Part shown: positions 21,132 to 53,933 of the stretch, piece after piece
How the letters are laid out: each line of letters starts with the position of its first letter
How positions within the stretch are numbered: the first letter of the stretch is position 1
Made by a program: the position numbers and the translations under genes
The notes under the pieces: model-generated
Database searches by the model: none
What the model saw: the letters and a program-made list of their open reading frames with translations, nothing else
What the model was told of the DNA's origin: nothing
Assembly (NCBI RefSeq): GCF_043290135.1
Contig: NC_134710.1
Coordinates: 462,931,376 to 462,995,375, forward strand
Direction of reading: 5' to 3'
Length of the DNA stretch: 64,000 nucleotides
Source of the DNA: Rhipicephalus microplus
Lineage: Eukaryota > Arthropoda > Arachnida > Ixodida > Ixodidae

Positions 21132-22394
21132 ATGGCGGAAGAAAGCACTCAGCAAAGTACGACCCAGCCTCCGATGGTCATCGTGCCCACCGCGTTATGC
21201 GTGCACGATCTACCGTTTTTCGACGCTACCGATGAGCCAGACCTAGAAGATCGGCTGTCGACATTTGAAAAGGTAGGCGTAAGCAACAAGTGGGACGAAC
21301 CTTCGAAGCTGCAATATGTACCCTTCTACCTAAAAGAGGTAGCGAGTCTCTGGTTTAACAACCACCAATCAGAATTCGCCACTTGGGGGGGCTTTTAAGA
21401 TATACGCATTACCGATGTGTCCGGTCGCCCCGTGGTACGCAAGCTTCGTGTTGAACAGCGCTTACAGGGAAGCACCCAACTTCAGAGAGGAGGCTTCACA
21501 AGCAACAGCAAGGATGTGCTCGACTTGTGCAAGCGCCTCGACCCTTCAATGATAGAAGCAGACAAGATCAAAAACATCTTGAAGGGAATGGACGAGTACG
21601 CTTTCCAGATGCTGCTGGCCAAGGGCCCACGTACCGTGTCCGAATTCACCCCTCTTTGCCACAGCTTCGAGGAGTTGCGCAAACGACGGGTCATGACACG
21701 GCTGCCGGCGGCTACTGACGAATCTCTCGCAGCATTGATCCTCGGTGAAGACCACAACACAATATTGTCTGAAATCAAAAGATATGCGCGCGAGGAGGTG
21801 GCCCGACAACTTTCATGCCTGTCGTATCTACCGGCCACGGAACCCTCTTCTGAGCGCGTCGCGCCCGCCATCAGGCAGGTAATCCAGGCTCAGGTCTCTG
21901 AGGCACTGCTGTCCATCATTCAGAACACACCTGTTACCGCGTCATTGACTTACGCTGCTGTTGCTGCTACTCCGCCACGACCTCCGCTTGGGCCGACTCC
22001 CCAGCCTGTGCGAATACCAACGACGCCATTAGGAGCAACACAGCAGCGCTATAACGGAAACCCTTGGCGCACGGCTGACAATCGCCTGATCTGTTAGGCA
22101 TGCGGATATCCAGGTCAAGTGGTGCGCTTCTGGCACCGACGCTTCGCAACGGGTGCGGCTGCATTTACTAAATTATCTGACTGCTCTTTGCCAGCCCCAT
22201 ACAACGCGCAACGAGAACTGCCCCGTCAATGCGACCGACAATCAGTGGAACGCGACCCGTCACCAAGCGAACTAGACTACCACCCTGCTGCTAACTACCG
22301 ATCATTCGGTCCCCGTCGCTCATCCTCGCCACGCCGCTACCGTTCTCCGTCCCCTCTGCGTCGCCGACTGAACCCCATAGAGACGGAAAACTGA
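21132..22394 (+). pseudogene. Gypsy-1 gag
   Basis: A Ty3/Gypsy capsid gene in pieces. 21132-21398 reads PMVIVPTALCVHDLPFFDAT, then SNKWDEPSKLQYVPFYLKEV and SLWFNNHQSEFATW, the capsid N-terminal region. A frame break near 21400 is followed by 21417-22097 (SMIEADKIKNILKGM, FQMLLAKGPRTVSEF), which matches the capsid C-terminal domain. The Pro-rich region follows. The knuckle region near 22095-22150 is degenerate (CGYPGQVVRFWHRRF). The last frame ends in an RS-rich tail, SSPRRYRSPSPLRRR, at TGA 22392-22394. It would form the virus-like particle core. Its stop abuts a frameshift-type signal. Confidence 0.8.
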
Positions 22395-22422
22395 CTGCAG
22401 CAGCTCCGGAAGCACGAGCTGC
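22385..22422 (+). promoter_or_regulatory. Gypsy-1 gag-pol -1 frameshift signal (degenerate)
   Basis: GGAAAAC (22385-22391) in phase G GAA AAC directly precedes the gag TGA. After an 8-nt spacer, GCAGCTC (22400-22406) and GAGCTGC (22416-22422) form a perfect 7-bp stem with a 9-nt loop. Slipping -1 opens a frame leading straight to the protease motif LAIVDIGAAVSV. The heptamer differs from the GGGAAAC of the other copies by one base. Confidence 0.75.
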
Positions 22423-23175
22423 GAAATCGCCACAATGTATAGGTCCTCGCGCCTTCCCCACAAACGTTTTGGAAGTGTTTGTTGAAGGTCTACGAACTCT
22501 TGCGATTGTCGACATCGGTGCTGCCGTATCTGTGACGAGTCAGAAACTCTCCCGTTTGATACGAAGAGTAACACCACCGCCTTCCGACGTTTAGCTGAAT
22601 ATAGTGAGCGCGCGAACAATTCGACCAGTCGGAGCATGTACGGCGAGAGTAATCATTCAGGACGTCCTGTACCACATCGATCGCAGGTGGAATTTTTCGT
22701 GTTTTCTGATGTGACATCTACCGACAATGAGCGCACTTACCATGGCGCACTTCCGACATTGTTGTTACTCCTCTTAGTGCCATTGCTGTCCCCGTCAATT
22801 GCACTGAATTATCAGGCTCTACCTTTGTGTTCTCCCCATGTGACGTTTTCAGGAGCCGGCACGATACGCCTTTGCCATACGCCGTTCTGCCACTTCATCA
22901 AGATACTTCCTGAATCATCGTTTGCAAATCTAATGCATGCTCTCTCACTTTAAGAGCTCAGTAAACACTGGGCCATGTTTTTTCTGTTGATGGCAACAAT
23001 ATTGTGCCTATTGAGTCCCACAACCCTGCCCAAGAACTTCCACTCAACGCTGTGACTCCTGTTTTTATGCGGGATGACTACTCCTCCGATATCTTCGATC
23101 GTTCCATCGACAGCAAGCTTCCTTGGGATCAACGGGATCAGCTAATAACCCTTATGCACGAATTCCGAGATTAAT
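22395..23175 (+). pseudogene. Gypsy-1 pol, 5' fragment with protease
   Basis: In the -1 frame after the gag stop, the sequence reads SPQCIGPRAFPTNVLEVFVE, then LAIVDIGAAVSVTSQKLS, a retropepsin motif in which the usual DTG has become DIG. The frame stays open from the slip site to a stop near 22590. Other frames continue PVGACTARVII and later FMRDDYSSDIF with LITLMHEFRD near 23150, the spacer just before RT. RT, RNase H and integrase are absent, so the element is truncated. Confidence 0.7.
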
Positions 23176-23179
23176 TTCA

Positions 23180-24357
23180 CCTTCCTCAAAAGGAACTTGC
23201 CCCCACCCCCTCCCCCAGCGATCTCCGCGGCAGCGCGGCTTTTTGCGCGAGTTGGAAAGGGCGCTTTTGGCACTCGCAGCAGCAGCAGTGCCTAGCGACC
23301 TCCGCGTGACACCACGCCTCCGACTAAACCCCCAAACGCTCGAAAAAAGGCAAAACCGAGAGGGCTTGAACTGCGCTACCTTCGACTTGCGGGACGGCTT
23401 TTTTTTCGTTTCTCTTTGTCTCTCTCATGCTTCCTCTGCATAGGCGTCGGCTCAGAGTGTAGGAATGAAGGAGCCGACGTCCTCGTCCGTTCGCCTTTTC
23501 TTTCAATTTTTGTCTGCTTTGCGAGTTTGATCAGCCAACCGCAGCTCCCGCCTTTTGCTGTTGCCCTCGTAGGTGGCCATCACCTCGGGAGTGCTTTGTT
23601 GCTTCCCCTGTCGCGTCGCCTACGTACCACCGCATTTGCATCAATTCACTTTTGCCTGCGTGCCTGTCATGTGCGCGCTTCTGCCCACCGGAATGTACAA
23701 AAGGCCCTCTATAGCTGGTTTTTAGAACTGTGCGTGAAGAACATTTTAGTGGATGGCCCAATGCTGATCGCCAAAGGCGAATCATTTGCCGCTGCTCTCG
23801 GTGAAACAACTTCGCCAAAAACACCGGGTCGCTTCACGAATTTAAGCAGTGCTACAACATTGTTGGCAAAACTATTCCCGGTGGAAGTGAAGCTGCCAGC
23901 AGCCAGGGCAGCCAGCAGTGGATGACAAAGGAGTGGCCGGAAATCTTTGCGAAGTTTTCTCCCGTGGAGAGATCTTCAATGCCTGGTGGGACGTGAAGAC
24001 GAACTCAGTGGTCTACTGCTTCCGCAAGGCAATCTTCGAGACGGCGGAACTTGCGGAAATCAATGAAGACGACAAAAACGAGTGCATAGATGACGCGTTT
24101 CGCGAGTTAAGATGAAAACTCGCATCTTCAAAATTTCAAAAACGAAGAAGCCGGCCAAATTTAGCGATTTTTTTCACACAAATAATTGATTCTGTTGTGG
24201 CTTGTGTGCGTAATTCATTGTCATTCCTGAATGCTTCTATCGTTGGTGAGGATTCACTACAGGTAAGCTCTCGGGGCCTCGATTTTTCATATCAAAGTTT
24301 TTATGTATCGAACTAACTTGCGATCTCCTTCGAGTTCGATATATCCATGTTCGACTG
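23180..24357 (+). pseudogene. Tigger/pogo DNA transposon relic
   Basis: Plus-strand frames give a CENP-B-type DNA-binding domain: KALYSWFLELCVKNILVDGP and MLIAKGESFAAALG (about 23690-23810), then EWPEIFAKFS near 23935 in another frame. The frame 23918-24115 reads SRGEIFNAWWDVKTNSVVYC and FRKAIFETAEL, which joins the start of the DDE catalytic domain directly to its C-terminal end, so the central catalytic region is deleted. The right end reads ATATCCATGTTCGACTG to 24357, followed by TA, as expected for Tigger termini and TA target sites. I did not find the left terminal repeat. The GC-rich 23180-23660 portion is of unclear origin. Confidence 0.78.
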
Positions 24358-24359
24358 TA

Positions 24360-24970
24360 ATCATAGTTAACTAGTATTTAATGACAACCAATTGGGGTCA
24401 ACTTGCTTGCGTTGGTTATGGTAGTACACCTGGACAAAAGACATGCAGGAAATAGAGTGAAAAATAGCTTTGCTGTATGAGGCAGTGCACATAAATTTCG
24501 AGATGAAAAACATATCCACCAAAGCAAAATTGCTTGCTGAAGACGATAGCCCAAGGCAGTGATATTGAATGCTGAGGCATGTCAGCAGCCGAGGACCTTG
24601 AGTGACAGTAGCAGTGTGGCCAATATAGCTACCCATTCTTATTTTAGCATGTAATCGCTGAAATATTTCAAAACTTTGCTCACAAAAAAGAATTCATATT
24701 TTCTGAATTATGTGTGTCTTGAATTTCCATAGCATCTTTGCTTAAGTACTATCTTTCAAAATGTATCCCGTTTACCTTCTTTTTGAAAAGAACACTCACA
24801 TTGCATCGTGCCTGTTCGGGTGTTTTACAAACATGGAAACCCATGAGAATGACAAGGCTATACCACTACATTATTTAAAGCAAAAGCCATTGTTGATGAG
24901 CGCAATCTTCTTGCGTCTGCATATCTGTGCACTTAACTTATTGGTGTATTCAAACGGTGTTAATTTTTGT
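24360..24970. other. No recognised feature
   Basis: This is AT-rich non-coding sequence immediately after the Tigger TA site. No motif was seen. Confidence 0.5.
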
Positions 24971-24978
24971 TATATGCA

Positions 24979-25165
24979 CTGCAAAAACTTACACCCATAA
25001 GGGTGTATTTTGTCACATAGGCAACACCTTTTTAGGGTGTTTAGAAACACCTAAACAATATGGTGTTTAGAAACACCCTGAAAAATTAGGATGTAAAGAA
25101 ACGTCACACCCTACATTTATAGGTTTTTAGGTGTTTTTGAACACACCTAAACTATGGGTGTTCGA
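24979..25165. repeat. GGGTGT-rich inverted-repeat element with CACTG end
   Basis: Starting with CACTGCAAAAACTTACACCC, this stretch holds at least eight copies of AGGGTGTTT or its complement (ACACCCTAAA, AACACCT), so it can fold into many alternative hairpins. Similar GGGTGT-rich blocks lie at 32430-32580 and 41320-41370. It looks like a MITE with CACTA-like ends, but paired ends were not delimited. Confidence 0.45.
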
Positions 25166-25523
25166 TGAAGCTACGCCCGTGCGAGTTGGATGTAACACTA
25201 TAAGCCCCATTGAAAGGATGGCAGTTACATGGATAAGCATACTTGATCAAATGAAGCGCAATTATTGGGACAACAAAAGGAGAGACACAGGAGGTGACGC
25301 TTCGTCTTGTGCATTGATGAGAGCCGTTTATAGCACTTCATTCCATAAAGTATGCATCACCAACTGGCCCAAGCCTAAACTGTTCTCAGGGAAAAGCATA
25401 TATGAACCTTCTCTGCGGCTGCCAGGGAAAAAAGAAGACACTGATGTTGCCCACTGCACGTATTACAACTGCATGCATGCAGCTGATAAAATAAAATGCC
25501 GTGGTCATGAAAGAGCTGCATAA
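25131..25523 (+). CDS. Hypothetical ORF, 130 codons
   Basis: This is an open frame with a mid region RMAVTWISILDQMKRNYWDN and CITNWPKPKLFSGKSIYEPS. Its first codons overlap the repeat element before it. No family was recognised and no splice context is clear. It may be chance or a remnant of an unknown element. Confidence 0.15.
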   Translation: MFLNTPKLWVFDEATPVRVGCNTISPIERMAVTWISILDQMKRNYWDNKRRDTGGDASSCALMRAVYSTSFHKVCITNWPKPKLFSGKSIYEPSLRLPGKKEDTDVAHCTYYNCMHAADKIKCRGHERAA

Positions 25524-27480
25524 CACCTGTGTATATACATGTAGGTAGACTGGGCCAAAAATGACAAAGTAGCACGCGTCAGACACATGCGCACACATAC
25601 ACATGCGCGCACGCACCACACCACACTAGTGCAAGCAGTAAGCCGTAGCGTAATGTTAAGCAGAACATAACACTGAAGCAAAAAAAAATTAAGCACATAT
25701 GTTCACATCTGCCTTAGTTTTAGAAAAACTGCAAAAAGTCATTAAGCACAACTCTGACGGCCTTCTGGAAAATTTTGAAATATCTCACGTGACCACGTTT
25801 TTTCCTCTCCACACTAGAAATTCATTGTTTTCAATACAATAAATCGCCATAACTTTCAAAAACATTTGCACTAGTCGGGCAAATGGCTGAGTGGTATGGC
25901 GTTAAATGACACCTATACAAAAAAAAACACGTTGAAAGAGTAAGCGAGTTTCTGGAGTCACATTTACAGCCCAATATAAGCCTCTGTATAACTTTCGACA
26001 TTAAATATGATAAGAGTCGACAAGGTAGTGCAATTGGGGTTGTAAAAATGTGATGTCAGCGTTGGTATATTTCTAATTACAAAAGCACAGCTTGTAACTG
26101 CTGCTTGGACAGTCATCTTCAGCGGCTGAGATGACTGTGCCAGGCTGTTCTTTCTGTACAAAAAATTCAATCCCAGAAACCTGAAATAAATACACAAGTA
26201 ACAAAGATCGAAGTTTCACAAAGAGTGCAACATACAGTATGCACCCTGCACAACTAACTGCTTTCTTATGTGTAAGTATAAATTGAGTGCTTAGCAAGCG
26301 TATTCAGCGGCATTGGGCTCCACTGCAATGAGAAATGCAAAAAAAGGTATACTGAGCAATAAAGGCATAAAAAGTGCGCTGTGGCAGAATTGCTATACCT
26401 TTCGTGACGTAGATATGAACCTTACTTTGCCCTTATAGCTTGCTCAAGCAGGCAAATAAAAAGGTGCAGCTCCAAGTTGATAATGTTCCATTAGCTGCAT
26501 GCGTCGACCAATCTAAGTGAATGTCAAGCTCCATGTTTAAGTATGCATCAACACAGCTACATGTGTATTTCTACAGGTCTACCATGGTAGTCATTCGATT
26601 AGTTTATTAAAAGGAATGCAGTACAACGCGCATAAGCATATACTTATTTTATCTATATTGCACAAAAGCACACCGCCAATGAGCATACGTGGCGGTATGT
26701 ACATTGAGAAAGTTTTCGGTGCAGGTAACTTGTAAAATTAGGTAGTGGGTAGTTACCTTTTGAAACGAAAATGATACTAGTGTTCTTGAACTGGTTCACA
26801 TTGACACGAGTATATAATGGAAGAATTGGCTATTGGGTCTTTCCACATTAGAGGTCTCAGCGATTTGGCGACCATCTCAAATCTATTAAAAAGGTGCTGA
26901 TTTATTGAAAAAAGAAGTCAACTGCTAGAATAATTCGCAGACAAACAATTTTTTGCTCATGTGGCTGCCTCCTGAACTTCCCGGAATCTCATCTGGGTGT
27001 TTGTGGAATAAATTATTTTTTAAGTACCTCTTCTTTTTCCTTGCCAAGTTTGATCTACACGTAAAGGCTTGCGTAAAGTGTTTGAAGCTCAGTAATAATA
27101 ATATTACCATTATTTCCTTAAATACGCCTAAAATAATTTAGCCAAAATGTGTTATATCTGCATTTTCCTATATAAATACTGCACTTTGAATGAACGTCTG
27201 AGGAGTGAATACTTATTCATCATAAGGTATATTTTGAGCAAAAAAATATTTTAAACCTCTCAGGCAGTCAAACTTTACGAGTAAAATTCACGAATTCCAC
27301 AAAATTGTTGTTTTGTCAATAATGAGACGCGACTTGCACACCATGTGGTGGTTTAATTAAAATAATCTTTGTACCTAAATCGAAGGCAAATAAACTGTTC
27401 TTTTCATGTGCCAAGTTTTGTCATAGCAATTTATGTTTTGAGAAAAGATCACAGAATATTCACGGAGTTATTGATGATGA
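25524..27480. other. AT-rich non-coding stretch
   Basis: It includes a CA/CG-rich simple repeat around 25575-25625 (CACACATGCGCG type). Otherwise there are no protein motifs, RNA genes or repeats that I could recognise. Confidence 0.5.
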
Positions 27481-27644
27481 GTGGGGCGAAGCGTCCGTCC
27501 GTCCGGACGCACAAACAGATGGACAGAAAGCCTGACGCAAGTATGGACGGACAGAAAAACGAACGGACACACGGACAGACCAACAGGTGGATGCCAGGAC
27601 GGACAGACGAAAGCACAAATGTACGGACGAACGATTCGCCCCAC
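27481..27644. repeat. GGAC-type minisatellite bounded by GTGGGGCGAA inverted repeats
   Basis: GTGGGGCGAA (27481-27490) and its exact complement TTCGCCCCAC (27635-27644) enclose about 145 bp of degenerate GGACGGACAGA repeats. The paired ends suggest a mobile unit whose interior is an expanding tetranucleotide array rather than a simple microsatellite. Confidence 0.75.
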
Positions 27645-36723: not shown

Positions 36724-39184
36724 TATAGCCGGAGCTGTTTATCGTCCACCTAGCTCGTCTGTAGCAGCATTCATTTCTACTATGGAAACTGTCTTAGACC
36801 CTTTGATAGCCTACAACCGCCCACTGGTTATATGTGGTGATTTTAACGTCGATCTACTTAAAGATGAATACCCTGACTATGTATTGATGCTCCAGTCATA
36901 TAATCTAATGAACGTTATCAATGCCCCTACACGAATAAGTGATAACTGTTCCTCACTTATTGATCATATTATTTGTGGAACTGATATGAGTGTTTTCGCC
37001 GGAGTGTATGACGTTACTATTGCTGATCACTGCCCCACTTTTCTGTTTGTGCCTAATGCTAATTTAGGACCTCCATGCCATAACTCAAAACGAGTTAAGC
37101 GGACAAACTACGCTGTAGTGCGCAAATTACTTGAGCGTACGGATTTTGAAGCCTTGTACCACAGTAATGTTCACACTGAATGGGAAAACTTTATTTGCCA
37201 AATAATGGAGGCAATTAGCCAATCAACCCAAGAATACACAGGCCAAAAACACAAGGAAGCAATATGTCCTTGGGTGACGCGGGACATACTGAATGTTATA
37301 AAGAAAAAAGATACATACTTCACTAGATGGAAACAAAACAAAACAAATGAATACTATGAAAAGCAGTTTAAACACTTCAGAAACAAATCAGTTGGGATGT
37401 TAAGGAAAGCCAAGAAGCAGTATTACAGTGCTAAAACAGTCCAACAGAGCGGTGACATCAAGCAGGTATGGAAGCTAGTGCGTGAAGTTACGGGAATAGG
37501 CGAAAAAAAGCGCATTGCTCCGGATAATCCTACAACAAATACCGCTGATAACTTCAATAACTTTTTTACCAATGTTGGTAACAACTTTCCTGCTCAATCT
37601 CAAGCAGATCCTCTACATTCTTGCCAAAACAAAATATTTGAGGAACACTTTCAGCTTGCAAGCGTAACCACTGAGGAAATTAGGTCAGAAATCCTAAAAC
37701 TCCCATGCAATAAAGCCGTTGGTCATGATGGGATTACTACAAAACTACTGAAGGTAAATGTAGACCTTCTTTCGGAGCCTCTTTCCCGTATCATGAATAA
37801 CTGCCTTCAAAATGGAACTTACCCAAATATCCTAAAGATAGCGAGAGTCGTACCTATTTACAAATCCGGGGATCGAGAAAATCCGAGCAGTTACCGTCCC
37901 ATCTCGGTGCTCAGCATTGTTAACACGCTTTTTGAAAAGGTAATTAGGTCCCATCTCTGTCGATTTCTAAGCTCAAACGACATAATCTGCCCTGAGCAAC
38001 ATGGCTTCATCACAAATAGGTCAACGAGCACAGCTGTTTTTACACTAGCACAGTTCGTCAACTCAGTACTTCATGATAACGAAATTGCCGTCAGCGTTTT
38101 CTTGGATATAAAAAAAGCATTCGATACTGTTTCGCATTCCATTTTATTAAAGAAATTAGAATCTTATTATGGCTTCACCGAGAAGACACTTCGGTTATTT
38201 TCTAGTTATCTGGCAGATAGAAAACAATGCGTCGTGTTTGACCGTATATCTTCAGGATTTAGAAAAATAACATGTGGAATACCCCAGGAAACCGTGCTAG
38301 GTCCTATGTTGTTTTCACTATACATAAATGACCTACCATCTGCTCTTTCACGCAAAACCATAATGTACGCTGATGACACTGCATTGCTTTTTCGAGGTAA
38401 CTTTCTGTGCACGCTAAAAGAAGAAATCACGGCAGAGTTGGCACAGATTTCCGCATGGTTCGCCCGCAACAAGCTCGCATTAAATGTAGCCAAAACTAAA
38501 TATATCATATTTCATTCCAGAAGAAAAAACCTCAATTATAGTCACCTGGACTTAGAAATTAACGACGCGCCCATTGAGCGCGTTTCCGCGTTTAAATACT
38601 TAGGGGTTCTAATAGATGAAAACCTGAATTGGAAAGATGAGGTTAATTACATATCCAAAAAGCTTGCTTTCGCATGCTTCACGCTCATTAAGGCCAAATG
38701 TTACTTTCCATATAACGTGCTACGATCATTATACTTTTCTATATTTCACTCTCAACTCAGTTATTGTAGCGAAATATGGGGCTTTACTTATCTAACGTAT
38801 ATAGCACCGATCATACGATTGCAAAAACGCGCCTTAAGAATTATTACGGCATCGTCCTCTTGTTGCCCAAGCTCAGATTTGTTTTCATCTACTCAGATAC
38901 TGCCTTTCACGTCTCAGCGAAATTATAAAACCGCGGTGTTGATAAATTCTATCATTAACACCAATTTTTCACTACCTGTGAGTGCGTTTTCTACACCGAC
39001 CCGTAACACAAGGCATGCAGGCAACGGCAACTTCAACCTCCCTACTTGTAGGAATGTATATGGCGAACGGTTAATACAATTCACTGGTGCTAAAATCTGG
39101 AACACAATTCCACTTGAAATTAAACTTGCCCGCAACTTTAAATTCACTTGTAAAATGCATTTTGTAAGTTTTTCATGTTCTTAA
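36724..39184 (+). CDS. LINE D ORF2: endonuclease C-terminus plus reverse transcriptase (800 codons open)
   Basis: The coding frame enters at about 36724 (AVYRPPSSSVAAFIST) and is open from the ATG at 36782 to 39184. The EEP part keeps LVICGDFNVDLLKDEYPDY, SLIDHIICG and ADHCPTFLF, but its N-terminal half is missing, so the copy is 5' truncated. The RT has NKAVGHDGITTKLLK, SYRPISVLSIVNTLFEKVI, PEQHGFITNRSTSTAVF, VFLDIKKAFDTVSHS, CGIPQETVLGPMLFSLYIND and the catalytic MYADDTALLF. GIPQETVLGP departs from the usual GIPQGTVLGP, a G-to-E change in a conserved loop. The C-terminal part (FKYLGVLIDENLNW, RHAGNGNFNLPTCRNVYG) is complete. It belongs to the CR1/Jockey group, has no RNase H, and is the youngest-looking LINE in the window. 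Confidence 0.9.
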
Positions 39185-41327: not shown

Positions 41328-41454
41328 CTCTAAGGCAAAAGGGTGCTAAAAGGGTGTGTCGTTCGTCCTTTTGGGGACTAATGGGGCTGCCACAACCATT
41401 CATCCTTTTTTGGGTTTAACAACATCCGGTTCAACAGTTAGTCGCAATATATTT

Positions 41455-41720
41455 GCACCTTATCAGACTAACGCTTAGTCCCCACAGAAGCACCTTATAG
41501 ACCAACAGTTAGTCCCCACGGATACACCTTATAAATTAACAGTTAGTCCTCACGGATACACCTTATGGTTTAATTGTTAGTCTCCACAAATACACCCTAT
41601 AGACTAATAGCTAGTACCCACGGACATACCTTATAATTTAACAGTTAGTCCCCACAGATGCACTTTATAGACTAACAGGTAGTCCACACAGATACGGTCT
41701 ATGAACTAGCAATTACCACA
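41455..41720. repeat. 34-35 bp minisatellite, about eight units
   Basis: Successive units share CACCTTATAGACTAACAG followed by TTAGTCCCCACGGAT, with 34-35 nt period and 10-25% divergence. They start near 41455, 41490, 41525, 41559, 41593, 41627, 41661 and 41695. The array runs directly into the broken integrase end of Gypsy-4. Confidence 0.85.
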
Positions 41721-42186
41721 ATACACCGGTTTCCTGATGAAGACGCGGGAAATGACCCCAGGACGTCCATGCCAATCTGATAGAAGGGAGCCTTTGATGA
41801 GCCTATTGGTTGCAGTAGTCCCGCTGGTCGTAAAGGTGGAATCTTACGTCACTGACAGTCGCGACATGTGCGAACGTAGTGCGTCACAGTCTTTGCGAGA
41901 CGAGGCCAGTAGTAGGATCGTTGAATTCGTTGCAATGTGCACGTATAGCCGAAGTGTCCGGACGACGGCTCATCATGACACGCACGTAAAATGTCACCAC
42001 GAAGCGTAGCAGATGCTTAGCTTGTGTAGGATTAAAGTTGTTTTTATAAAGCATTCCATCGCGGAAACAAAAGGAGGATAGTGAGCGTGCAAAGCTTCGA
42101 GGAGGGTGGGAATCGCGTTCTTCCAGGTAGTCAATGAGCGGGATGAGCTCCGAGTCATGGCGCTGTTGCTCAGCCAAGCGGGTCAC
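41710..42186 (-). pseudogene. Gypsy-4 pol: RNase H-integrase linker and integrase N-terminus
   Basis: The minus strand reads LAEQQRHDSELIPLIDYLEE, FARSLSSFCFRDGMLYKNNF, then in other frames GHFGYTCTLQRIQRSYYWPR, HYVRTCRDCQ (zinc-binding HHCC region), and QIGMDVLGSFPASSSGNRC at the start of the DDE core. The sequence stops at VVIA against the minisatellite, so the catalytic core is lost. Several frameshifts occur. Confidence 0.8.
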
Positions 42187-43489: not shown

Positions 43490-44578
43490 TTAACTTTTGA
43501 CGTAGTGGCAAAGCAGTATTGAAATGAGCCCAGTATACGCAAAAGGTTTTCTCGTTGAGCCGAAGATAGTCTCTAGTTTACGTCGAGAGTGCTCGAAGGC
43601 CTCGTCAGGGTGGCCATTCGATGAAAATGAAGCTAACGTGGACGAACCATCGGCATCGGCAAGTTCTTCACAATATGCAATGGCAGTATGTCTCCTTAGG
43701 TGGCGATATTCGTCGCTGAAGTTTGTGACCAGCAGGTCAACATGCCTGTTGCTAGGCTGAATGATTCCTCGGGCAGCACAAATTTGTCGTGAAATAAGGA
43801 GAGACAAACTGGCCTCTGCAATTACCGCGTCAAACATGTCCCGTCCCAATTCTACTTGGACAAAGAGGCTGCTTCCAGGTGGAAGAGTCAGAGAATTGTA
43901 AGTAACACGAAGCGCTCTTTTCCGGAATTGTGTACTGTCAGTTGCATCGCAAAAGGGATCCTCGAACGACACAAGTAATTCACGGAGATGAATGACGGCG
44001 GCGTATTCACGAAGGAAGTCCATTCCTAGAATGACTGGCCGAGAGCACACGCGCAATACGAGAAAAGAGCCCGCAAACGTCGTCATACGTATTCGAATGC
44101 GAGCCGTGCACATACCAGTAGGCGTCACCAGATGGCCACCTGTCGTGCGCAACTGGGGTCCTTGCCATGGTGTGGTAAATTTCGTCAGTTCATATGGCAT
44201 TGTGGTGCTCATTACAGAATAGTCCGCAGCGTTGTCGACGAGGGCGTTGACAGCATGATTGTCGACAAAGACGGCGATTTCGGTGGAAACAATCTTTCTG
44301 CTGTCGGAGCACACTGCAAAACCGGAATGGTCCTCGTCTGGTCGAGTAGTCGAAGGAGGGTCTTTTACAGTTCGCCGGGCCGCGACTTCAACCCCAGAAT
44401 TCGCTCTTCCTAGTTTCCCCTGCGGGAGCTTGGTGACCGGCTCCTGAAAGGAGCGGAAGTCTTTGAGGGCAGACTGGGTTTCGTAGACTGGTGAGCCGAT
44501 GGTGTTCGAGACTGGTGGTGCTGAACAGTTGAAGGTGTTTGCTGGCCCGTGGGATAGGCTTCGATTTCGCAGGGGCAC
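43490..44578 (-). pseudogene. Gypsy-4 pol N-terminus with aspartic protease
   Basis: A 362-codon minus-strand frame overlaps the end of gag in the -1 frame. It holds STEIAVFVDNHAVNALVDNA followed by ADYSVMSTTMP, the retropepsin site with DTG changed to DNA, then PTGMCTARIRI and PVILGMDFLREYAAVIHLRE, the second half of the protease fold. It continues LLISRQICAARGIIQPSNRH and VTNFSDEYRHLRRHTAIAYC, the linker before RT, and ends near 43490. The open frame passes through the GGGAAAC slip site at 44413-44419, as expected for a Gag-Pol fusion. Confidence 0.85.
44382..44419 (-). promoter_or_regulatory. Gypsy-4 gag-pol -1 frameshift signal
   Basis: On the minus strand GGGAAAC (44419-44413) in phase G GGA AAC is followed at once by the gag stop TAG (44412-44410). 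After an 8-nt spacer counted from the heptamer, GCGAATT (44404-44398) and AAGTCGC (44388-44382) pair with one mismatch around a 9-nt loop. gag ends SPSSRRGN then stop; pol reads the overlapping -1 frame as GGG AAA CTA. Confidence 0.85.
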
Positions 44579-45753: not shown

Positions 45754-45780
45754 TATATATATATTTATATATATATATAA
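45754..45780. repeat. Short TA repeat at the 5' edge of Gypsy-4
   Basis: A TATATATATATTTATATA run marks the junction between Gypsy-4 and the 454-bp tandem array, and may be the insertion or recombination point. Confidence 0.6.
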
Positions 45781-46910
45781 GGGAAAGAAGTGTATCCCTA
45801 AGGGTTCGATTTTCCGTGTTTTGACACAATATTAATGAGATCTAACAGACAGTAACGCCAAGGAACGTACAGGGGAAGTTATTAGAACCAATGGGATGTA
45901 AATAGGAAGAAAGAAAAGTAGGTGAAAAAATAACCAGCCATGAGCAAAAATCGAACCTACGACCTTCGAATAACGCGTTCGATGCTGAAACCACTGAGCT
46001 ATCAAAGCGGCGTTCCCTCCATCCACTTTTTTGGGTTTATATGTGAATTTAGGAGTAGGAGTGTCAGTCAGCGCCATCTATAAGCCAAGCGACAAGTGTG
46101 AAACTCTCTCATGCGCATGTGTGGCGTCATGTAGCACGTGAACTTATTACAAGCGGGCAGAAGATTAATAGTCTCTCGTATACAACCTAATGACACCGAG
46201 TTTGCCAGTACGAGACCCTCGTTAATGAATAAGGGAAAGATGTGTATACCTAAGGGCTCGTTTTTCCGTGTTTTGACACAATAATAATGAGATCTAACAG
46301 ACAGTAATGCCAAGGAATGTACAGGAGAAGTTATTAAAACCAATAGTATGTAAATAACAAGAAAAAAAAGTGGGTGAAAAAACAACCAGCCGTGAGCAGG
46401 AATCGAACCTACGACCTTCGAATAACACGTTCGATGCTCTAACTACTGAGCAATCAAAGCGGCCTTCCCTCCATCCACTTTTTTGGGTTTATATGGAAAT
46501 TGAGAAGTAGGAGTGTCAGTCAGCGCTATCTATAAGCCAAGCGACGAGTGTGAAACTCTCTTTTATGTGCATGTGTGGCGTCACGTAGCACGTGCACTTA
46601 TTACGAGCAGGCAGCTGATTAATAGTCCCTTGTATACAACCTAATGACACCAAGTCTGCCAGTACGAGACCCTCTTAAATGAATAAGGGAAAGAAGTGTA
46701 TACCTAAGGGCTCGTTTTTCCGTGTTTTGACACAATAGTAATGAGATCTAACAGACAGTAATGCCAAGGAATGTACAGGGGAAGTTATTAGAACCAATGG
46801 GATGTAAAAAAGAATGAAGAGTGGGTGAAAAAACAACCAGCCGTGAGCAGCAATTTTCTTTTTTCGTATTTACATCTCATTGGTTCTTATAACTTCCCCT
46901 GTAGATTCCT

Positions 46911-46911
<1 letters not shown>
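45781..46911 (-). repeat. Tandem array of a ~454-bp tRNA-derived unit
   Basis: Units begin GGGAAAGAAGTGTAT or a near variant at 45781, 46233 and 46687, giving periods of 452 and 454 bp. On the minus strand units 1 and 2 contain a tRNA-like segment (45955-46020; 46400-46470) with GCTCAGTAGTTAGAGCA as A box/D arm and GTAGGTTCGATTCCTGC as T arm and B box. Unit 3 breaks off inside the tRNA-like part at about 46855. Its AAGGAATGTACAGGGGAAGT (46775-46794) then returns inverted at 46888-46911. These are SINE-like, polymerase III-type units that have become tandem. Confidence 0.85.

Positions 46912-47004
<93 letters not shown>
46912..47004. repeat. Long (TA)n tract
   Basis: About 46 TA dinucleotides in a row. 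A second (TA) tract lies at 47191-47227, bounding a ~190-bp segment with a hammerhead-like motif. Confidence 0.95.
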
Positions 47005-47005
<1 letters not shown>

Positions 47006-47183: not shown

Positions 47184-47224
<41 letters not shown>

Positions 47225-47400: not shown

Positions 47401-47575
47401 GGGTCACCCTCACAGTTTAAAGACCCTCAAAAAAACAAAAAAAAGAGAGAGAGAGACAAACGGGCGAACGAGGTAGCAACAGACAACAAGAAGCAGAAGA
47501 AGGAGAGGAACTGGAAAGGAGCGACGGAGAGCCGCCAGAAACGAGCGGGTAATTCTGGCATTGTTACTAATGTTA
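47401..47575. repeat. Purine-rich low-complexity tract
   Basis: Plus-strand A/G-rich sequence (AAAAAAGAGAGAGAGAGACA, AGAAGCAGAAGAAGGAGAGG). No coding signal. Confidence 0.6.
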
Positions 47576-47739
47576 CTAATGGGCATTGCAGTTACACTCA
47601 ATTCCAAAACAAAGAAAGCTTGTGCACGATGCGTGCATGATCTGACTGACTGAACTGACTGACTGACTGACTGACAGCTGTAGCGCTTGTCGTTGTCGAT
47701 GTAGTCGGAAAATGCAAAGCATTGACCAAGTACTCAGGA

Positions 47740-48064
47740 TGTTAGGTTGAAAAACTGTGTATTGATCAAGTTGACGCGTGCCGACGTATGTTTCTTCCAT
47801 GACAAACTTATCAAAGAGGAGCACCAGGGCCATCGGGTGAATTTTCTTGTCGTATTTCTTCAGTGGAGGACACGTCCGCCACTTGTAGCGCCACATGTGG
47901 TGGTTGAAGGCCTCGTCATCTGAAAACACCTCGTTGTTTGAGAGCACAATGACGGGTGTCCTGGAAATGGTCTGGTCAGCAGTGTACTTGACAGCCACCG
48001 AGTCTACGTCACCACCAAAAATTTTTTTGACAGTATCGAAAGCGGATGACTCCAACCACCACAT
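47740..48064 (-). pseudogene. Endogenous viral fragment: SF3-helicase, densovirus NS1-like
   Basis: The minus strand reads FGGDVDSVAVKYTADQTISR, then TPVIVLSNNEVFSDDEAF and MWRYKWRTCPPLKKYDKKIH. The T-P-V-I-x-x-SNN stretch fits motif C of superfamily 3 helicases, and the following basic region and PLKKY-IHP pattern fit the helicase C-terminus of parvoviral (densovirus-like) NS1. The Walker A and B part is absent, so only the last third of the helicase is here. The fragment lies between broken Gypsy pol sequence and repeats, and its end is duplicated in inverted orientation at 48053-48135. Other SF3 families are possible. It is an inert relic. Confidence 0.55.
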
Positions 48065-48135
48065 GTGGCGCTACAAGTGGCGGGCGTGTCCTCCACTGAA
48101 GAAATACGACAAGAAAATTCACCCGATGGCCCTGG
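47824..48135. repeat. 83-bp inverted duplication of the helicase fragment end
   Basis: 47824-47906 and 48053-48135 are inverted copies with one visible mismatch, separated by 146 bp of the same viral-like sequence. The right copy joins directly to Gypsy RNase H sequence (minus strand). Confidence 0.9.
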
Positions 48136-48622
48136 AGCTCGGTGGTCGTGCCTTCGAGGTATTCTATTAGGGCCTTAAGTTCCGGGTCGGCCCGCTGTCG
48201 TTCAGCGAAGTCGTCGGTAGTTATCTTTCCCAAGACGTAGTCGTCATCCGGGTCGTCGAGTGGTGGTTAGTTGACAGGCGCACGAAAGAGATAGTCGGCG
48301 TCGCAGTGTTTCTCGCCGGATTTGCAAATGACAGTAATGTCATATTCTTGAAGTCTTAGGCTCCATCGTGCGAGGCGATCTGAAGGGTCCATCAAGGTGG
48401 CTAGCCAACACAAGGCGTGGTGGTCACTCACAACTTTGAAGGGCCTGCCGTAGAGGTAGGGCGAAATTTCGATGTTGTCCAAATGATGGCGAGGCACTTA
48501 TTTTCTCTTGTGGAATAATTCGCTTCTGCTTTGAATAGTGATCGGCTGGCGTAACTAATAACCTTTTCAAGTCCGTCAGCTATCTGCACAAGAACGGTGC
48601 CAAGACCTACGCTGCTTGCCAT
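48136..48622 (-). pseudogene. Gypsy pol RNase H fragment
   Basis: The minus strand from 48622 gives MASSVGLGTVLVQIADGLEK, VISYASRSLFKAEANYSTRE, then [54 protein letters not shown] and ERQRADPELKALIEYLEG. This is the Ty3/Gypsy RNase H and connection to integrase, in two frames. The viral-like inverted copy cuts it off at about 48136, and its 5' end abuts the LTR of Gypsy-2. It does not continue into either neighbour, so it is a separate relic. Confidence 0.85.
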
Positions 48623-48648
48623 GAGCTATGCTGCTGCAGCATAGCTCA

Positions 48649-49037
48649 TGCTACGTTCCATTCCTCAAGATTTGTTATCGCCCCAATACATTACACAATT
48701 CTCAGCGCAAACCGCGCCTGCAGTTTTCGAGAAGCTTCGGGACTGTAGTAGATCATTTCGATAAGATCACGCTCACTCCGCGAACTGAACAGATTATTTT
48801 GGAACACTTGTCACCGCCAGCGATAACGCTACAACATTCGATGGCAATAGTATAAATGCCGACGCACTTCGCCGCTCTTCAATAGTTAATCGACGGCCGA
48901 CACTACATTCGCCGCTATCAGTCTAAGACTGCTACTGTAATGGGGCTTTCCGTTTACCGGGCACAGGTTCGCCCAAATAAACAGTTAAATTCCAACGCAA
49001 AGTGTCCTATCTTCCGCCACGTCAGGACCCCGTGACA
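48649..49037 (+). other. Gypsy-2 5' LTR
   Basis: It starts TGCTACGTTCC and ends CCCCGTGACA, 389 bp, with TATAAAT at 48851-48857 and AATAAA at 48976-48981. At 49040 TGGTGGAGGTGCTGC follows, the same primer-binding motif as in Gypsy-1 and Gypsy-3. It would drive and terminate element transcripts. No matching direct 3' LTR exists here; the only other copy is an inverted 78-bp piece at 51248-51325. Confidence 0.85.
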
Positions 49038-49244
49038 TCTGGTGGAGGTGCTGCTTCTTTGATATTCCGGACGCCCCCTTCAAGCCACGACCCCAGACCA
49101 AGCGGCAAAGAAGACACGGACACTAACCCTGAATAGCGAACAAGCCACAGGCAGAGGGGACTACAATCAGAGTACGGGCCCCTTCCTGAAGCAGCCAGGC
49201 AGACCCGGATCCCGACAATAACTACTGCAACCATTACCGCCCCC

Positions 49245-50441
49245 GTGCAGCCTGTACCACTCCTGCTCCGGCAACCCAAAGAGCCGCCAACTTTTCGCGG
49301 TTCGCCACTGGAAGACCCAGAAAACTGCATCGAGAGGTTCGGCCACGTCGCTGCCTTCAGTGACTGGACAGACGATGACAAGCTCCAGCTTGTGTATTTC
49401 GCTTTAGAAGATGCTGCTCGGACCTGGTTCAAGAATCAAGAAAGAAGCCTTACAACGTGGGACATCGTTCGCGCCAGGTTCCTCACTACTTTCGCAGGTG
49501 TGGTGTGCAAGGAGAAGGCCGCAGCTCTTCTCGAAACCCGCATGCGGATGCCAAACAAAAACGTGGTGCTATTCACGGAAGATATGATTGAACTTTTCCG
49601 CCATGCTAACTCCGACGTGTCTGAGGAGAAGAAGGTCCGTCTGCTTATGCGAGAAGTAAAGCAGGAACTCTTCACCGGACTGGTCAGAAACCCGCCTAAG
49701 ACGGTCGCCGAATTCATTTCAGAAGCATCTACGATAGAGAAGAGGCTCCAGATGCGCACGCGGCAAATTAATCGTAGCTTCTCGTCTACAAGCTACGCCA
49801 GCATTTAAGCGCCTGTAACCGCTGACTTGCGTGAGACGATCCGAGCGATCGTGCAAGAAGAGCTGCGAAAATTACTTCCTTCAGCGCAGCCTCACGTGGA
49901 ATCCATCGCGGACATCGTACGCCAAGAGATCCAGCAATCGCTGGGCGTTCCTCAGCCTCAAGAGCCTCAGCTGCAAGCCATAAGCTATGCTGCTGCAGCC
50001 CGCCGCTACTCCCCTCCTCCACGCACACACCAAAACACTGCCTCATCACACTTCCGTTGCCAGACGCCACCGCCGCCACCACCCCCACCGACATCCTACC
50101 GTTCGCCAGCGGCCCAGCGCAGTGCGCCGAGGAAGACTGACGTCTCGCGCACCCCTGACCACCGCCCGCGCTGCTACCATTGCGGCGAGACCGGACACAC
50201 CTACCGCCATTGCTAGTACCGACAGATGGGACTGCGTGGCTTCGCCGTCAATGCACCACGTCCACAGCCAGGAGAACGACCACGTGACATCCCCGACTAC
50301 GTGACATACCTGACAGGACCTCAGTGGACACCACGAAGCCTTTCGCGTTCGCCGTCACCCAGCCGCCGCACGTCACCGCGCCACCGGCAGTACTCTGGCC
50401 TAACGCGGGGCCGGTCTGTTAGCCCGTATCCGGGAAACTAA
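49245..50441 (+). pseudogene. Gypsy-2 gag
   Basis: One reading frame runs from about 49220 to the TAA at 50439-50441, with two in-frame stops (TAA 49806-49808 and TAG 50214-50216). Capsid landmarks are EPPTFRGSPLEDPENCIERF, WTDDDKLQLVYFALEDAART, WDIVRARFLTTFA and KVRLLMREVKQELFTGLVRN. After the first stop come TIRAIVQEELRKLLPS, a run of prolines, and the zinc knuckle CYHCGETGHTYRHC. The tail is RS-rich (SLSRSPSPSRRTSPR) and ends YPGN then stop. Only point mutations separate it from a full gag. Confidence 0.9.
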
Positions 50442-50471
50442 GGGCAGCAACCGATGGAGGTGCGGTTGCTG
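50432..50471 (+). promoter_or_regulatory. Gypsy-2 gag-pol -1 frameshift signal
   Basis: GGGAAAC (50432-50438) in phase G GGA AAC is followed by the gag TAA (50439-50441). After a 6-nt spacer CAGCAACCG (50445-50453) pairs perfectly with CGGTTGCTG (50463-50471), a 9-bp stem with a 9-nt loop and an optional extra G-T pair. pol (VAVRRTTEDPP onward) is in the -1 frame. Confidence 0.9.
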
Positions 50472-51257
50472 TGCGACGAACTACCGAAGATCCTCCGACG
50501 ACAACGACGCGGCGACGGAGTTTTTCGAACACAACGACAACCAGACAAAGCCCTGACGGCAAAACCTCATTTACCGAAGGTGACCTGACGACGCAACATG
50601 AAATCAGCGGAACAAGCCGACGCAGCCGTAACCCGACGCCACGCCCTAACTGTAATGCGAGACGGTGAACTATCGACCTCGATGTTCTTATCGACGGCCT
50701 TAGTGTGACCGCTCTCGTCGATACTGCAGCCGACTACTCCGTCATCAGTGGGTCGTTCGCCGCGAAGTTGAAGAAAGTTAGGAAAGCTTGGGAAGGCCCT
50801 GAAATCCGCACAGCCGGAGGTCCTCACGCAACACCTGCAGGAATCTGCACAGCGAGAGTCACCATTAACGGTCGTATTTAACCTACAGACGTCTTAGTCC
50901 TACAGCGTTGCTCGAGAGATGTCATCCTTGGCATGAACTTTTTATGCCTCCATGGTGCTGTCATCAACCTAAAAACAAAATCGATAACGTTATCCACAGA
51001 AGAAGCACTACCGCTGCACACGCCGTCAGGAAACCATGCCTTGAATGTGCTGGAAGAACAAGTCACTCTTCCGCCTCGCTCAAGCATCGATATTTCAGTC
51101 GGTGCTCCCAAATCACCTGACTTGGAAGGCGTCGTTGAAGACAGTGAGCATCTGTTGGTCACCCGAAATATTTGCATCGCAAGAGGAATTCCAGAGCTGC
51201 GGAGAAGCAAAGCAACAGTTATGCTCACGAATTTCAGCAATGAGTACAAACTGCAGG
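50442..51257 (+). pseudogene. Gypsy-2 pol, protease fragment
   Basis: The -1 frame gives a Thr/Arg-rich lead (TTTTRRRSFSNTTTTRQSPD). After a frameshift near 50668 the protease follows: DVLIDGLSVTALVDTAADYS (DTG changed to DTA), IRTAGGPHATPAGICTARVT, then a stop near 50880, and SRDVILGMNFLCLHGAVINL. The linker LLVTRNICIARGIPELRRSK and MLTNFSNEYK ends abruptly at 51248-51257, where the sequence changes to inverted LTR. RT and integrase are absent. Confidence 0.85.
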
Positions 51258-51325
51258 CGCGGTTTGCGCTGAGAATTGTGTAGTGTATTGGGCCGATAAC
51301 AAAGCTTGATAAATGGAACGTAGCA
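51248..51325 (-). other. Inverted fragment of the Gypsy-2 LTR
   Basis: The reverse complement of 51248-51325 aligns with 48649-48726, the first 78 bp of the LTR, with about five mismatches. The joint with pol shows AAACTGCAG, present in both partners, so it was probably formed at microhomology. Gypsy-2 thus ends in inverted instead of direct LTR sequence. Confidence 0.85.
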
Positions 51326-51530
51326 TCTGTAGAGGCTGTCGCCGCCGCTCCGAATAGCAGATGGCCTCCAGGCAGATATGGACGTTCGACTTGGTGCATC
51401 CGAACACTTGCGGCTGCTCTAAGCGCCGTTGTGCTTTCTGCCGTTTATTCAAAAGTGCTGCGCCGACACGCCTTGCCTCAATAGTAACAATCTTTAAAAG
51501 GGTAAGGGCATGTCGGTATTGCATATTTAA

Positions 51531-51759
51531 AAGTGAACTGAATCGCTAAAAACAAGGACGCAAAAAAGCGCTTGTTCTTTTTTTCTTTCTGTTTATTAGT
51601 GTGCTTGAACGGACAGTTATACCAGGAAAGTTATACCAAAAAACTGACAGTTATATCAACACTGACAGTTATACCAACAAACTAATTACGTATTAGTTCA
51701 GTGCTCGTGTTGTCTCTGGTTCTTTTCTGCGTCCTTGTTTGTCGCACTGCAGTTCACTT
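51531..51759. repeat. Imperfect inverted repeat with AAGGACGCA arms
   Basis: AAGTGAACTG (51531-51540) with AAACAAGGACGCA soon after returns inverted as TGCGTCCTTGTTT and CAGTTCACTT (to 51759). The ~155-bp interior holds three or four degenerate ACAGTTATACCAA units. It resembles the foldback insertions but lacks the head motif and a clear target duplication. Confidence 0.6.
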
Positions 51760-52217
51760 GTAAAGCAATCTCATTTTCTCTGAAAATGGAAAAGAGTGGA
51801 TGCGAGCAGGGGAGCCTAGAAAAATTACGTGCTAGGCGTGATAGATGAGCGCAAATCTAAACGCAGAGTGCCAGCCAGCCGCTCAACGGAGATTTGGTCA
51901 GCCGCTCAACTTGCCTCCCTGGGCACTTGAGCCCAAGGAAGCTGGCGTGTACAAAGAGTAGCTGTGGCACATCTGCCTTCATAAACCTTTTTCACTATAA
52001 CTGCCAGAATTTCGGCCAGCTCTTGTCTCCCGACCAACGCCATTGCGCTAGCAGTCGTTGTCCGGGAACAGGTCCTTCAACCGGAATGGGCCGGTCTACG
52101 ACGAACTCTCGACGCCCCACGCAGGTGGACTTTCTCAGGCCTTGTTACCGTGAAAACTAGAGCTATCTTTACAATTGGAGAAAATTTCGGCCTTGTTTGT
52201 AAGACACAAGATCATAT
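51760..52217. other. No recognised feature
   Basis: Non-coding DNA just upstream of Gypsy-3. No motif was recognised. Confidence 0.45.
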
Positions 52218-52394
52218 TGACGCGTGTCTACATGTGGACGATAACGATGATGGGGCATTTAGTGGGCACGAGGTAGTGGGCCTCTAGCTTCTCTCGAGGC
52301 TGAAGAAGACAATCTTGTGACTGAGCTGTTCAGGACACGCTGCCTTTCGTCGTCCCAAGGTGTATCTGTGTTTTATTCGCGTTGTACCGCGACA
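52218..52394 (+). other. Gypsy-3 5' LTR
   Basis: 177 bp, unusually short for a Gypsy LTR, followed after one base by the primer-binding site. There is no obvious TATAAA or AATAAA inside, unlike the Gypsy-2 LTR. Confidence 0.95.
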
Positions 52395-52426
52395 CTGGTG
52401 GAGGCGCTGGGCCGCAACCCTGTCTG

Positions 52427-53905
52427 ATGCTCCACACGCCCGCTGGGAGCCGCTCATCGAGTCCAAACGCACTGTCACCTGTAGAAACACCGGTGCATCG
52501 CTCCAGTCGACGGTTGCGAGGCCTCGCGCCAGAGCTGACTCACTCGCCGGAACCTGCTAGGCACCGCACAGCTCAACCAATGGCCAACGCAAGCCCACAA
52601 CAGGTGCCCCAAGGCAGCTTTCCGACACACCCATCTCAGGTGACCCTCTTTCAACCCCTCGTTCCCGATCGCTTTAGTGGCGGTGCCCATGAAGACGTTC
52701 ACGACTGGCTTGACCACTATGAGCGTGTTGCCAAGGTAAATCATTGGTCGGAACAGGAAAAGCTTTGGCGCGCCTATTTCTACCTTGACGACGGTGCTCG
52801 TACTTGGTATGAGAATAGAGAAGGCAATCTGTCAGCTTGGCCCGACTTTCGAGAGACTTTCGTCGATACCTTCGCCAATATCGATAGAAGGGACCGCGCG
52901 CAGCAGTTATTGGAGCTACGGGTTCAAAAACCCAACGAAACCGTTGCAATGTTTGCCGAGGACATGACTCGTCTCTTTCAACGAGCTAACCCGCACATGA
53001 CGGAAGATAAAAAGTTGAGTTACCTCATGCGCGGTGTCAAGGAGCAGCTTTTTGCCGGGCTACTGCGCAACCCTCCGACTACCGTGGTTGACTTCATTAA
53101 GGAGGCTACGGCTATCGAGCGGGCCCTTCATCAACGCTGCAGGCAATATGACCGCATGTCCTGCAATGTCCCAATCAATGCTACCGCCATGACGTCTGAG
53201 AGTCAGAGCTGCTTGCGAGACTTGATTAGGGAGATAGTTCGCCAGGAACTGCAGAAGTTGCGGAATCCTGTTGCTGAAATTCCCATCGCATCGATCGCTG
53301 AAGTCGTACGCGACGAAATCCACCAAGCGTTGTCTACGCCTAGTCCTGATGCTCAGCAGCGTCCTATGAGCTACGCTGCCGCTCTCCGACGTCCACCACC
53401 CGCTATGCCGATGCTGTACCACCAGGTGCCGATGGCCCCTTCATATCCGCCGCAAGAGCAGACACTGCATCAAACACCTACGCTACAGCCACACAACCAG
53501 CCATCCACAGCCACCCCATGGGCATCGACGCGTCCACCGACCCGGAAAACAGATGCATGGCGCACCGTGGACAGGCGTCCACTATGCTTTCACTGCGGAG
53601 GTGCACGACATATTGCCCGTCATTGCTGGCATCGAGGTGATTCATTCCGTCCTCAACGACCTTGGTTTGACGGTCGACGTGCCAACGACGAATACACTCC
53701 GCGCCGTGACGACACCTCTTTCTATGGAGCGCGTTATCACTTTGAGGACGGCTCTACCACTGCAGAGAAGGCAATGCCTGCTCAGCCTCCTGGTCCGAGA
53801 CGTCAGTCCCGCTCTCCGTCCCCCGCGCGTTCGCCTTTGTCGCACCACCGCACCTATGCGAACCTTAATACAAGGAGGTCACCTAGCCCGCGCCGGGGAA
53901 ACTGA
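52427..53905 (+). CDS. Gypsy-3 gag polyprotein
   Basis: The frame is open through the leader; the first ATG after the primer-binding site is at 52427 (492 codons), and a second at 52580 (441 codons) is the more likely start because similarity to the other gags begins there. Capsid landmarks: PLVPDRFSGGAHEDVHDWLD, WSEQEKLWRAYFYLDDGART, ETVAMFAEDMTRLFQRANPH and LMRGVKEQLFAGLLRNPPTT. Then comes a linker, SYAAALRRPPPAMP, and the zinc knuckle CFHCGGARHIARHC (CX2CX4HX4C). The tail is RS-rich and ends RRSPSPRRGN then TGA. It forms the particle and binds genomic RNA. There is no internal stop. It is expressed from the LTR, with pol reached by frameshift. Confidence 0.93.
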   Translation: MLHTPAGSRSSSPNALSPVETPVHRSSRRLRGLAPELTHSPEPARHRTAQPMANASPQQVPQGSFPTHPSQVTLFQPLVPDRFSGGAHEDVHDWLDHYERVAKVNHWSEQEKLWRAYFYLDDGARTWYENREGNLSAWPDFRETFVDTFANIDRRDRAQQLLELRVQKPNETVAMFAEDMTRLFQRANPHMTEDKKLSYLMRGVKEQLFAGLLRNPPTTVVDFIKEATAIERALHQRCRQYDRMSCNVPINATAMTSESQSCLRDLIREIVRQELQKLRNPVAEIPIASIAEVVRDEIHQALSTPSPDAQQRPMSYAAALRRPPPAMPMLYHQVPMAPSYPPQEQTLHQTPTLQPHNQPSTATPWASTRPPTRKTDAWRTVDRRPLCFHCGGARHIARHCWHRGDSFRPQRPWFDGRRANDEYTPRRDDTSFYGARYHFEDGSTTAEKAMPAQPPGPRRQSRSPSPARSPLSHHRTYANLNTRRSPSPRRGN

Positions 53906-53933
53906 GAGCGGCGACCTCCGGGGGCAAGGTTGC
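53896..53933 (+). promoter_or_regulatory. Gypsy-3 gag-pol -1 frameshift signal
   Basis: GGGAAAC (53896-53902) in phase G GGA AAC is followed by the gag TGA (53903-53905). GCGACCT (53911-53917) pairs with AGGTTGC (53927-53933, one G-T pair) around a 9-nt loop, 8 nt downstream. The -1 frame has a TAG just upstream of the slip site, so the overlap is only about 18 nt, which confines any slippage to this site. Confidence 0.88.

Follow-up and report, generated by a model that had tools for sequence, protein, structure and literature searches.

GGGAAAC is among the heptanucleotides most prone to -1 slippage on mammalian ribosomes (PMC5009743), and a table of viral pseudoknots predicted by computation has nine retroviral rows with this heptamer, eight of which combine a spacer of 6-7 nt with an H-type pseudoknot whose stem 1 has 6-7 bp (caprine arthritis encephalitis virus, CAEV, has 4 and 10; PMC3835772). 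A stop codon directly 3' of the heptamer is found in Rous sarcoma virus (RSV) and barley yellow dwarf virus, and a stop inserted after the slip site of human immunodeficiency virus 1 (HIV-1) lowers apparent frameshifting by about 70% and renders it sensitive to eRF1 (PMC4373837). For ticks, the first genome paper lists the Ty3/Gypsy clades Mag, CsRn1, Squirrel and Toxo and elements with two open reading frames (ORFs), and the portion of it covered describes no frameshift signal (PMC4748124). At the level of titles and abstracts, with most subscription papers outside coverage, the literature offered nothing on frameshifting in Gypsy elements of ticks or other chelicerates. I consider here a stretch of 64,000 nt from contig NC_134710.1 of Rhipicephalus microplus (the window, within a genome of 3.26 Gb), which contains four Ty3/Gypsy copies, numbered 1 to 4, together with reverse transcriptase (RT) ORFs resembling those of long interspersed nuclear elements (LINEs). 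The gag-pol junctions of these copies very probably carry a programmed -1 ribosomal frameshift signal, the slippage itself being judged from known systems. The signal belongs to a known kind, familiar from retroviruses, and is unusually well conserved here.

An earlier note on this DNA had described, at all four junctions, a gag frame ending in a slippery heptamer and a stop, followed by a spacer and a stem closing a loop of exactly 9 nt, and all of these elements are present where it placed them (Table 1). If the first base of the heptamer is numbered 0, the four copies share one ungapped register, with the arms of stem 1 at offsets 15-21 and 31-37 and the loop at 22-30. The description of the stems as 7-9 bp long has to be amended in its particulars: copy 2 contains a mismatch and copy 4 a G.U pair, and the ten contiguous pairs of copy 3 reach outward to offsets 12 and 40, leaving a spacer of 5 nt. 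Nor do the stem sequences differ completely, as had been said; all four have GC at offsets 15-16 and again at 36-37. The pol frame does lie at -1 at each of the four junctions. Its uninterrupted run into the protease, claimed for copy 1, was seen in three copies (22385, 44419 and 53896), and in copy 3 (50432) a single stop at codon 78 stands ahead of the protease motif at codon 94. A heptamer of the form X XXY YYZ lies in the zero frame in three of the four copies, and GGGAAACTRR occurs three times in the window, always at a junction; 0.39 occurrences are expected in the window, and none of 100 shuffles reached three.

In the whole genome, GGGAAACTRA occurs 18,226 times and its reversal 6,720 times. 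The surroundings of the pattern were examined in a sample consisting of the first 88 of 100 listed sites, all on contig C1, with the duplicates L009-L013 excluded from the counts. Junctions were called by tblastn with masked flanks (positions -10 to +94 masked), iterated outward in rounds from the four window copies. By this measure, 65 of the 88 sites have a match in other copies, either to the end of gag or to the beginning of the protease, and the remaining 23 have none, so that the comparisons below are between 69 junctions (the 65 and the four window copies) and 23 non-junction sites that share the same decamer. Four of the latter (L017, L020, L038 and L214) represent one repeated place, whose predicted peptide looks like protease. 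Clustering at 75% identity gave 26 families, 18 of them in the main clade, A, and 8 in clades B and C together. If C1 is representative, a rough extrapolation puts the number of junctions in the genome at about 13,000. A region of about 1.7 Mb on C1 contains five junctions (L002 and L004-L007) that are identical over the printed stretch, and their sequences suggest a recent multiplication of one Gypsy family.

As to reading frames, 45 of the 69 junctions have each flank, by homology, in the frame expected of it. Over the examined length, neither side is interrupted in 34 of the 69, whereas none of the 23 non-junction sites is open on both sides.

On average 6.54 of the 7 columns of stem 1 are paired at the junctions, against 2.30 at the non-junction sites; all 7 pair in 46 junctions, 6 in 16, 5 in six and 3 in one. 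When the 3' arms were swapped among the 26 families, none of 20,000 swaps attained the observed pairing, and the register with the 9-nt loop is the best on average of those scanned. Compensatory changes were counted on a FastTree tree built from the flanking sequences of 64 distinct junctions, from which the structure itself was left out. The tree contains 10 two-sided compensatory events, as compared to 1-3 when the 3' partner was slid along the sequence and 2.55 on shuffles of the tips. The covariation that the earlier note had named as a check is thus found over the 26 families, and the heptamers at junctions are not random. The suggestion that slip site and gag stop serve as one fused element also gains support, since the register of heptamer, stop and stem recurs over the same 26 families. 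The note's observation is correct, and the evidence for it is now stronger than any the note could bring.

It may be asked whether only the peptide at the start of the -1 frame is conserved, the pairing being a by-product of its codons. This leader opens with GKL and is similar in all four window copies; across families it keeps the form GKLxAAT.GG.VA...PP, and it resembles the stretch before the protease in the database proteins P0006 and P0058 (from R. microplus and a pseudoscorpion, respectively). Moreover, the codons for Gly-Gly and Pro-Pro alone supply much of the complementarity of the second stem considered below (swapped loops still give a run of 3.7 nt). In stem 1, however, both partners of columns 17-35 and of columns 20-32 fall on third positions of -1 frame codons, so that constraint on the peptide cannot explain their covariation (columns 20-32 are T-A in 8 families, C-G in 16 and something else in 2). 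Nor would such constraint put a stop beside the heptamer while allowing TAA, TGA and TAG to interchange. With the arm swaps and the compensatory events added, these observations largely refute a peptide-only origin of stem 1, which I regard as very improbable. As to the peptide itself, a leader of the form KL..AA.(.)GG precedes the protease in P0058 and also in P0025, hinting that the junction peptide may predate ticks; among 54 candidate database proteins, none shared the -1 leader at an E-value of 0.01.

Since the 88 sampled sites were selected for a stop, they cannot test whether the stop belongs beside the heptamer. For this question the starting point was the protease: tblastn over 264 kb of contiguous sequence (the window and the preceding 200 kb) gave seven protease loci, four of them the window copies, and the site taken at each was the one that scored best within 900 nt upstream of the protease, where the score counts heptamer, stop and stem. 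Best sites scored 14-16 and second-best 9-11. At all seven loci a stop stands right after the heptamer position in the stem register (TAA in two, TGA in three and TAG in two), with 5-7 of the 7 columns of stem 1 paired. The heptamer is exact at five loci and one base off at the other two, copy 1 among them. With only three loci from outside the window, this is a small test.

A number of results weigh against a frameshift signal of this form. The heptamer of copy 1, GGAAAAC, is non-canonical and does not fit XXXYYYZ. Taken singly, the hairpins are unremarkable in stability when compared to shuffled sequences, except for that of copy 3 (50432; z of -4.1, the other three having -0.3, -0.4 and -1.7), so that the case rests on the comparison between copies. 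At 24 of the 69 junctions, one flank or both lack confirmation in the expected frame, lying in another frame or having no match. Only 42 of the 69 have no other contiguous stem as long as that in the register with the 9-nt loop. The tree also shows 23 changes that disrupt stem 1 pairs (7-18 with the partner slid, 53 with the tips shuffled), though changes of this kind would be expected in decaying copies. Within clade A alone, 7 of 20,000 arm swaps attain the observed pairing; when clades B and C are pooled, 495 of 20,000 do so, a weaker result. Finally, the tip-shuffle and slide controls remove relatedness only in part. To these may be added some searches that returned nothing of the kind. 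Rfam covariance models run over 50400-54050, which includes the junctions of copies 3 and 4, gave two matches (E of 0.16 and 0.31), both away from the junctions and far under the gathering scores. Viral contigs searched with one protein and with an alignment yielded no relatives, and the matches of the DNA pattern to at least 120 stretches of these contigs were taken as chance hits. A collection of genome contigs contained 10 loci with Gypsy-like RT, none of which has GGGAAAC followed by a stop on the strand read, and a protease motif was seen in only 2 of the 10.

Whether stem 1 is the whole of the structure is a separate matter. In most families the loop is G-rich, and 20-25 nt past stem 1 lies the start of a C-rich stretch, as would suit a second stem. 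With the loop alone considered, the mean Watson-Crick run between a loop and its own partner is 4.31 over the 26 families, against 3.70 for swapped partners, and 34 of 20,000 swaps do as well; this version of the test was chosen after others had been run. The earlier versions, with a window of 56-72 and the same 26 families, gave 1,092 of 20,000 for duplex energy and 74 of 20,000 for the Watson-Crick run, and duplex energy over a wide window in 18 families was not significant (12,467 of 20,000). Among the 21 families with a good stem 1, the swap test gave 20 of 20,000. A control with the window reversed (4.5 vs 4.56) is uninformative, because GGNGG/CCNCC is the same read backwards.

The alternative that the stimulator is a simple hairpin, lacking a pseudoknot, has an appreciable though minority probability. 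The covariation of stem 2 is modest within clade A (339 of 20,000) and without support in clades B and C (8,725 of 20,000), only 10 of the 26 families have at least 5 contiguous Watson-Crick pairs, the tests by duplex energy are the weaker or negative ones, and a stem 2 run of 5 was reached at just one of the three extra loci located through the protease, those beyond the window, with runs of 2 and 3 at the remaining two. A simple hairpin, on the other hand, would not lead one to expect that over all families a loop's own partner, at a similar distance, outdoes swapped ones, an effect absent from a control window further downstream (75-93; 2,106 and 3,945 of 20,000), nor that some families attain a stem 2 of 7 bp by differing sequences (GTGGAGG/CCTCCAC and TTGGGGG/CCCCCAA). 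Overall, stem 2 is moderately supported by these comparisons, and an H-type pseudoknot in the main clade is likely but unproven.

Slippage, its efficiency and competition with the release factor are drawn from the described systems, and by that analogy the signal would work as follows. A ribosome reading gag would arrive at G GGA AAC with a stop as the next codon and would be stalled by the stem of about 7 bp (with its 9-nt loop) that lies 5-8 nt past the heptamer, a stem probably extended in many families to an H-type pseudoknot between the G-rich loop and the C-rich stretch 20-25 nt beyond. Most ribosomes would terminate at the adjacent stop, producing Gag. A fraction would slip to GGG AAA and proceed in the -1 frame, with Leu as the next residue, through protease, RT, RNase H and integrase, producing Gag-Pol. 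The stop would be the codon due to occupy the A site next, so that late slippage should face competition from the release factor, which would make the stop part of the switch.

Pol might instead be made by another route, either splicing or termination followed by reinitiation at the gag stop, with the slippery site as a relic. Some public protein models of relatives (P0006 and P0058, for example) do fuse other sequence upstream of the pol frame, though the models are predictions and it is I who read splicing into them. A relic, however, would lose its covarying pairs and its heptamer over copies as divergent as these (copy 1 and copy 4 are 24% identical in gag and 35% over a protease stretch of 66 residues), and I consider such a route highly unlikely.

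The programmed frameshift signal may be set in a larger proposal, that heptamer, gag stop and covarying pseudoknot constitute an ancient recoding module, held in one register while protein identity fell to 24-35%, with the stop as a gate sensitive to the release factor. This I put forward as a rather doubtful conjecture. If it were true, the more than ten thousand junctions (by rough extrapolation) would make this one genome a natural test of -1 frameshifting on a large scale, the ratio of Gag to Gag-Pol being set differently by families that differ in their stops, their stems and the strength of stem 2. In any event, it is covariation, beyond mere resemblance, that shows a retrovirus-like -1 signal with a gag stop in the A-site position across many Gypsy families of the tick. 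With three stop codons and a great variety of stems among them, these families supply natural variants through which to ask what an adjacent stop and a pseudoknot each contribute to the efficiency of frameshifting. There is most to gain from study of the probable pseudoknot and of the stop as a release-factor gate. The signal may also aid the annotation of genes, as gene prediction may easily take a pol dependent on frameshifting for a gene of its own or for a spliced one.

The features of the window are collected in Table 1. Copy 4 has the makeup of a Ty3/Gypsy long terminal repeat (LTR) retrotransposon: gag followed by protease, RT, RNase H and integrase (by Pfam), LTRs with TG..CA ends and a short target duplication. 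With identical LTRs of 177 nt and ATAT on either side, it is a young insertion. Its gag is open, and its pol is split over two ORFs, the first ending at 55287 and the second starting at 55321. Within the best 120 of 5,304 protein matches, the six best relatives named by organism come from ticks (R. microplus and Ixodes scapularis) and the next from a spider. Among the LINE-like ORFs, all of them long, one has a clear endonuclease domain and one a weak match to endonuclease. The tRNA-Thr-like gene may be a tRNA-derived repeat.

Table 1. Features of the window (positions counted from its first nucleotide; + and - denote the strand).
Feature	Position	Strand	Remarks
Copy 1	about 21219-22657	+	Ty3/Gypsy
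Copy 1 heptamer position	22385..22391	+	GGAAAAC
Copy 1 gag stop	22392..22394	+	TGA, adjoining the heptamer
Copy 1 stem 1	22400..22422	+	7 bp; 9-nt loop 22407-22415
Copy 2	about 45600-41714	-	Ty3/Gypsy
Copy 2 slippery heptamer	44413..44419	-	GGGAAAC
Copy 2 gag stop	44410..44412	-	TAG
Copy 2 stem 1	44382..44404	-	6/7 pairs (one A.G mismatch); 9-nt loop
Copy 3	about 49038-51250	+	Ty3/Gypsy
Copy 3 slippery heptamer	50432..50438	+	GGGAAAC
Copy 3 gag stop	50439..50441	+	TAA
Copy 3 stem 1	50444..50472	+	10 bp; 9-nt loop 50454-50462
Copy 3 candidate pseudoknot partner	50492..50496	+	CCTCC, for loop GGAGG
Copy 4	52218-57679	+	Ty3/Gypsy
Copy 4 target duplication	52214-52217 and 57680-57683		ATAT, 4 bp, flanking both LTRs
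Copy 4 5' LTR	52218..52394	+	177 nt, TG..CA ends, identical to 3' LTR
Copy 4 gag frame	52382..53905	+	Pfam Retrotrans_gag; start coordinate set mechanically
Copy 4 slippery heptamer	53896..53902	+	GGGAAAC, closing the 507-aa gag frame
Copy 4 gag stop	53903..53905	+	TGA
Copy 4 stem 1	53911..53933	+	7 pairs (one G.U); 9-nt loop 53918-53926
Copy 4 candidate pseudoknot partner	53958..53963	+	GCCCCC, for loop GGGGGC
Copy 4 -1 frame	54010..55287	+	Protease and start of RT
Copy 4 separate ORF	55321..57423	+	Remaining RT, RNase H, integrase
Copy 4 3' LTR	57503-57679	+	177 nt, identical to 5' LTR
Palindrome	1820-2029		Near-perfect, 105-nt arms, no spacer
Repeated stretch	1923-1994 and 2107-2178		72 nt, first position repeated at the second
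LINE-like RT ORF	2544-3632
LINE-like RT ORF	11514-13796	-
LINE-like RT ORF	36782-39181
Tandem array	41431-41729		Unit spacing 34 nt
Direct repeat	45777-46982		Three copies, spacing about 453 nt
tRNA-Thr-like gene	46388-46460	-	Anticodon TGT; inside the direct repeat

The nearest parallels in heptamer are the betaretroviral and lentiviral sites of Mason-Pfizer monkey virus (MPMV), simian retrovirus 1 (SRV-1), squirrel monkey retrovirus (SMRV), jaagsiekte sheep retrovirus (JSRV), feline immunodeficiency virus (FIV) and maedi-visna virus, all with the same GGGAAAC as the tick Gypsy elements (PMC3835772). The candidate partner for stem 2 lies 20-25 nt after stem 1 in the tick, whereas the long loop in the viral table has 9-15 nt (PMC3835772). 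The gag stop of the tick elements adjoins the heptamer. RSV, which also has an adjoining stop, differs in its heptamer (AAATTTA) and in its larger predicted structure (PMC3835772), as well as in the type of element. PEG10, a mammalian gene derived from sushi-ichi, shares with the tick elements a Ty3/Gypsy origin and the heptamer region GGGAAACTC; it has a pseudoknot, to which the candidate one of the tick would correspond, after a spacer of 5 nt, and its -1 frame codons GGG AAA CTC specify the same Gly-Lys-Leu (PMC2800197). In PEG10, however, a sense codon follows the heptamer and the two frames overlap by 61 nt, whereas in the tick elements the stop is immediate (PMC2800197).

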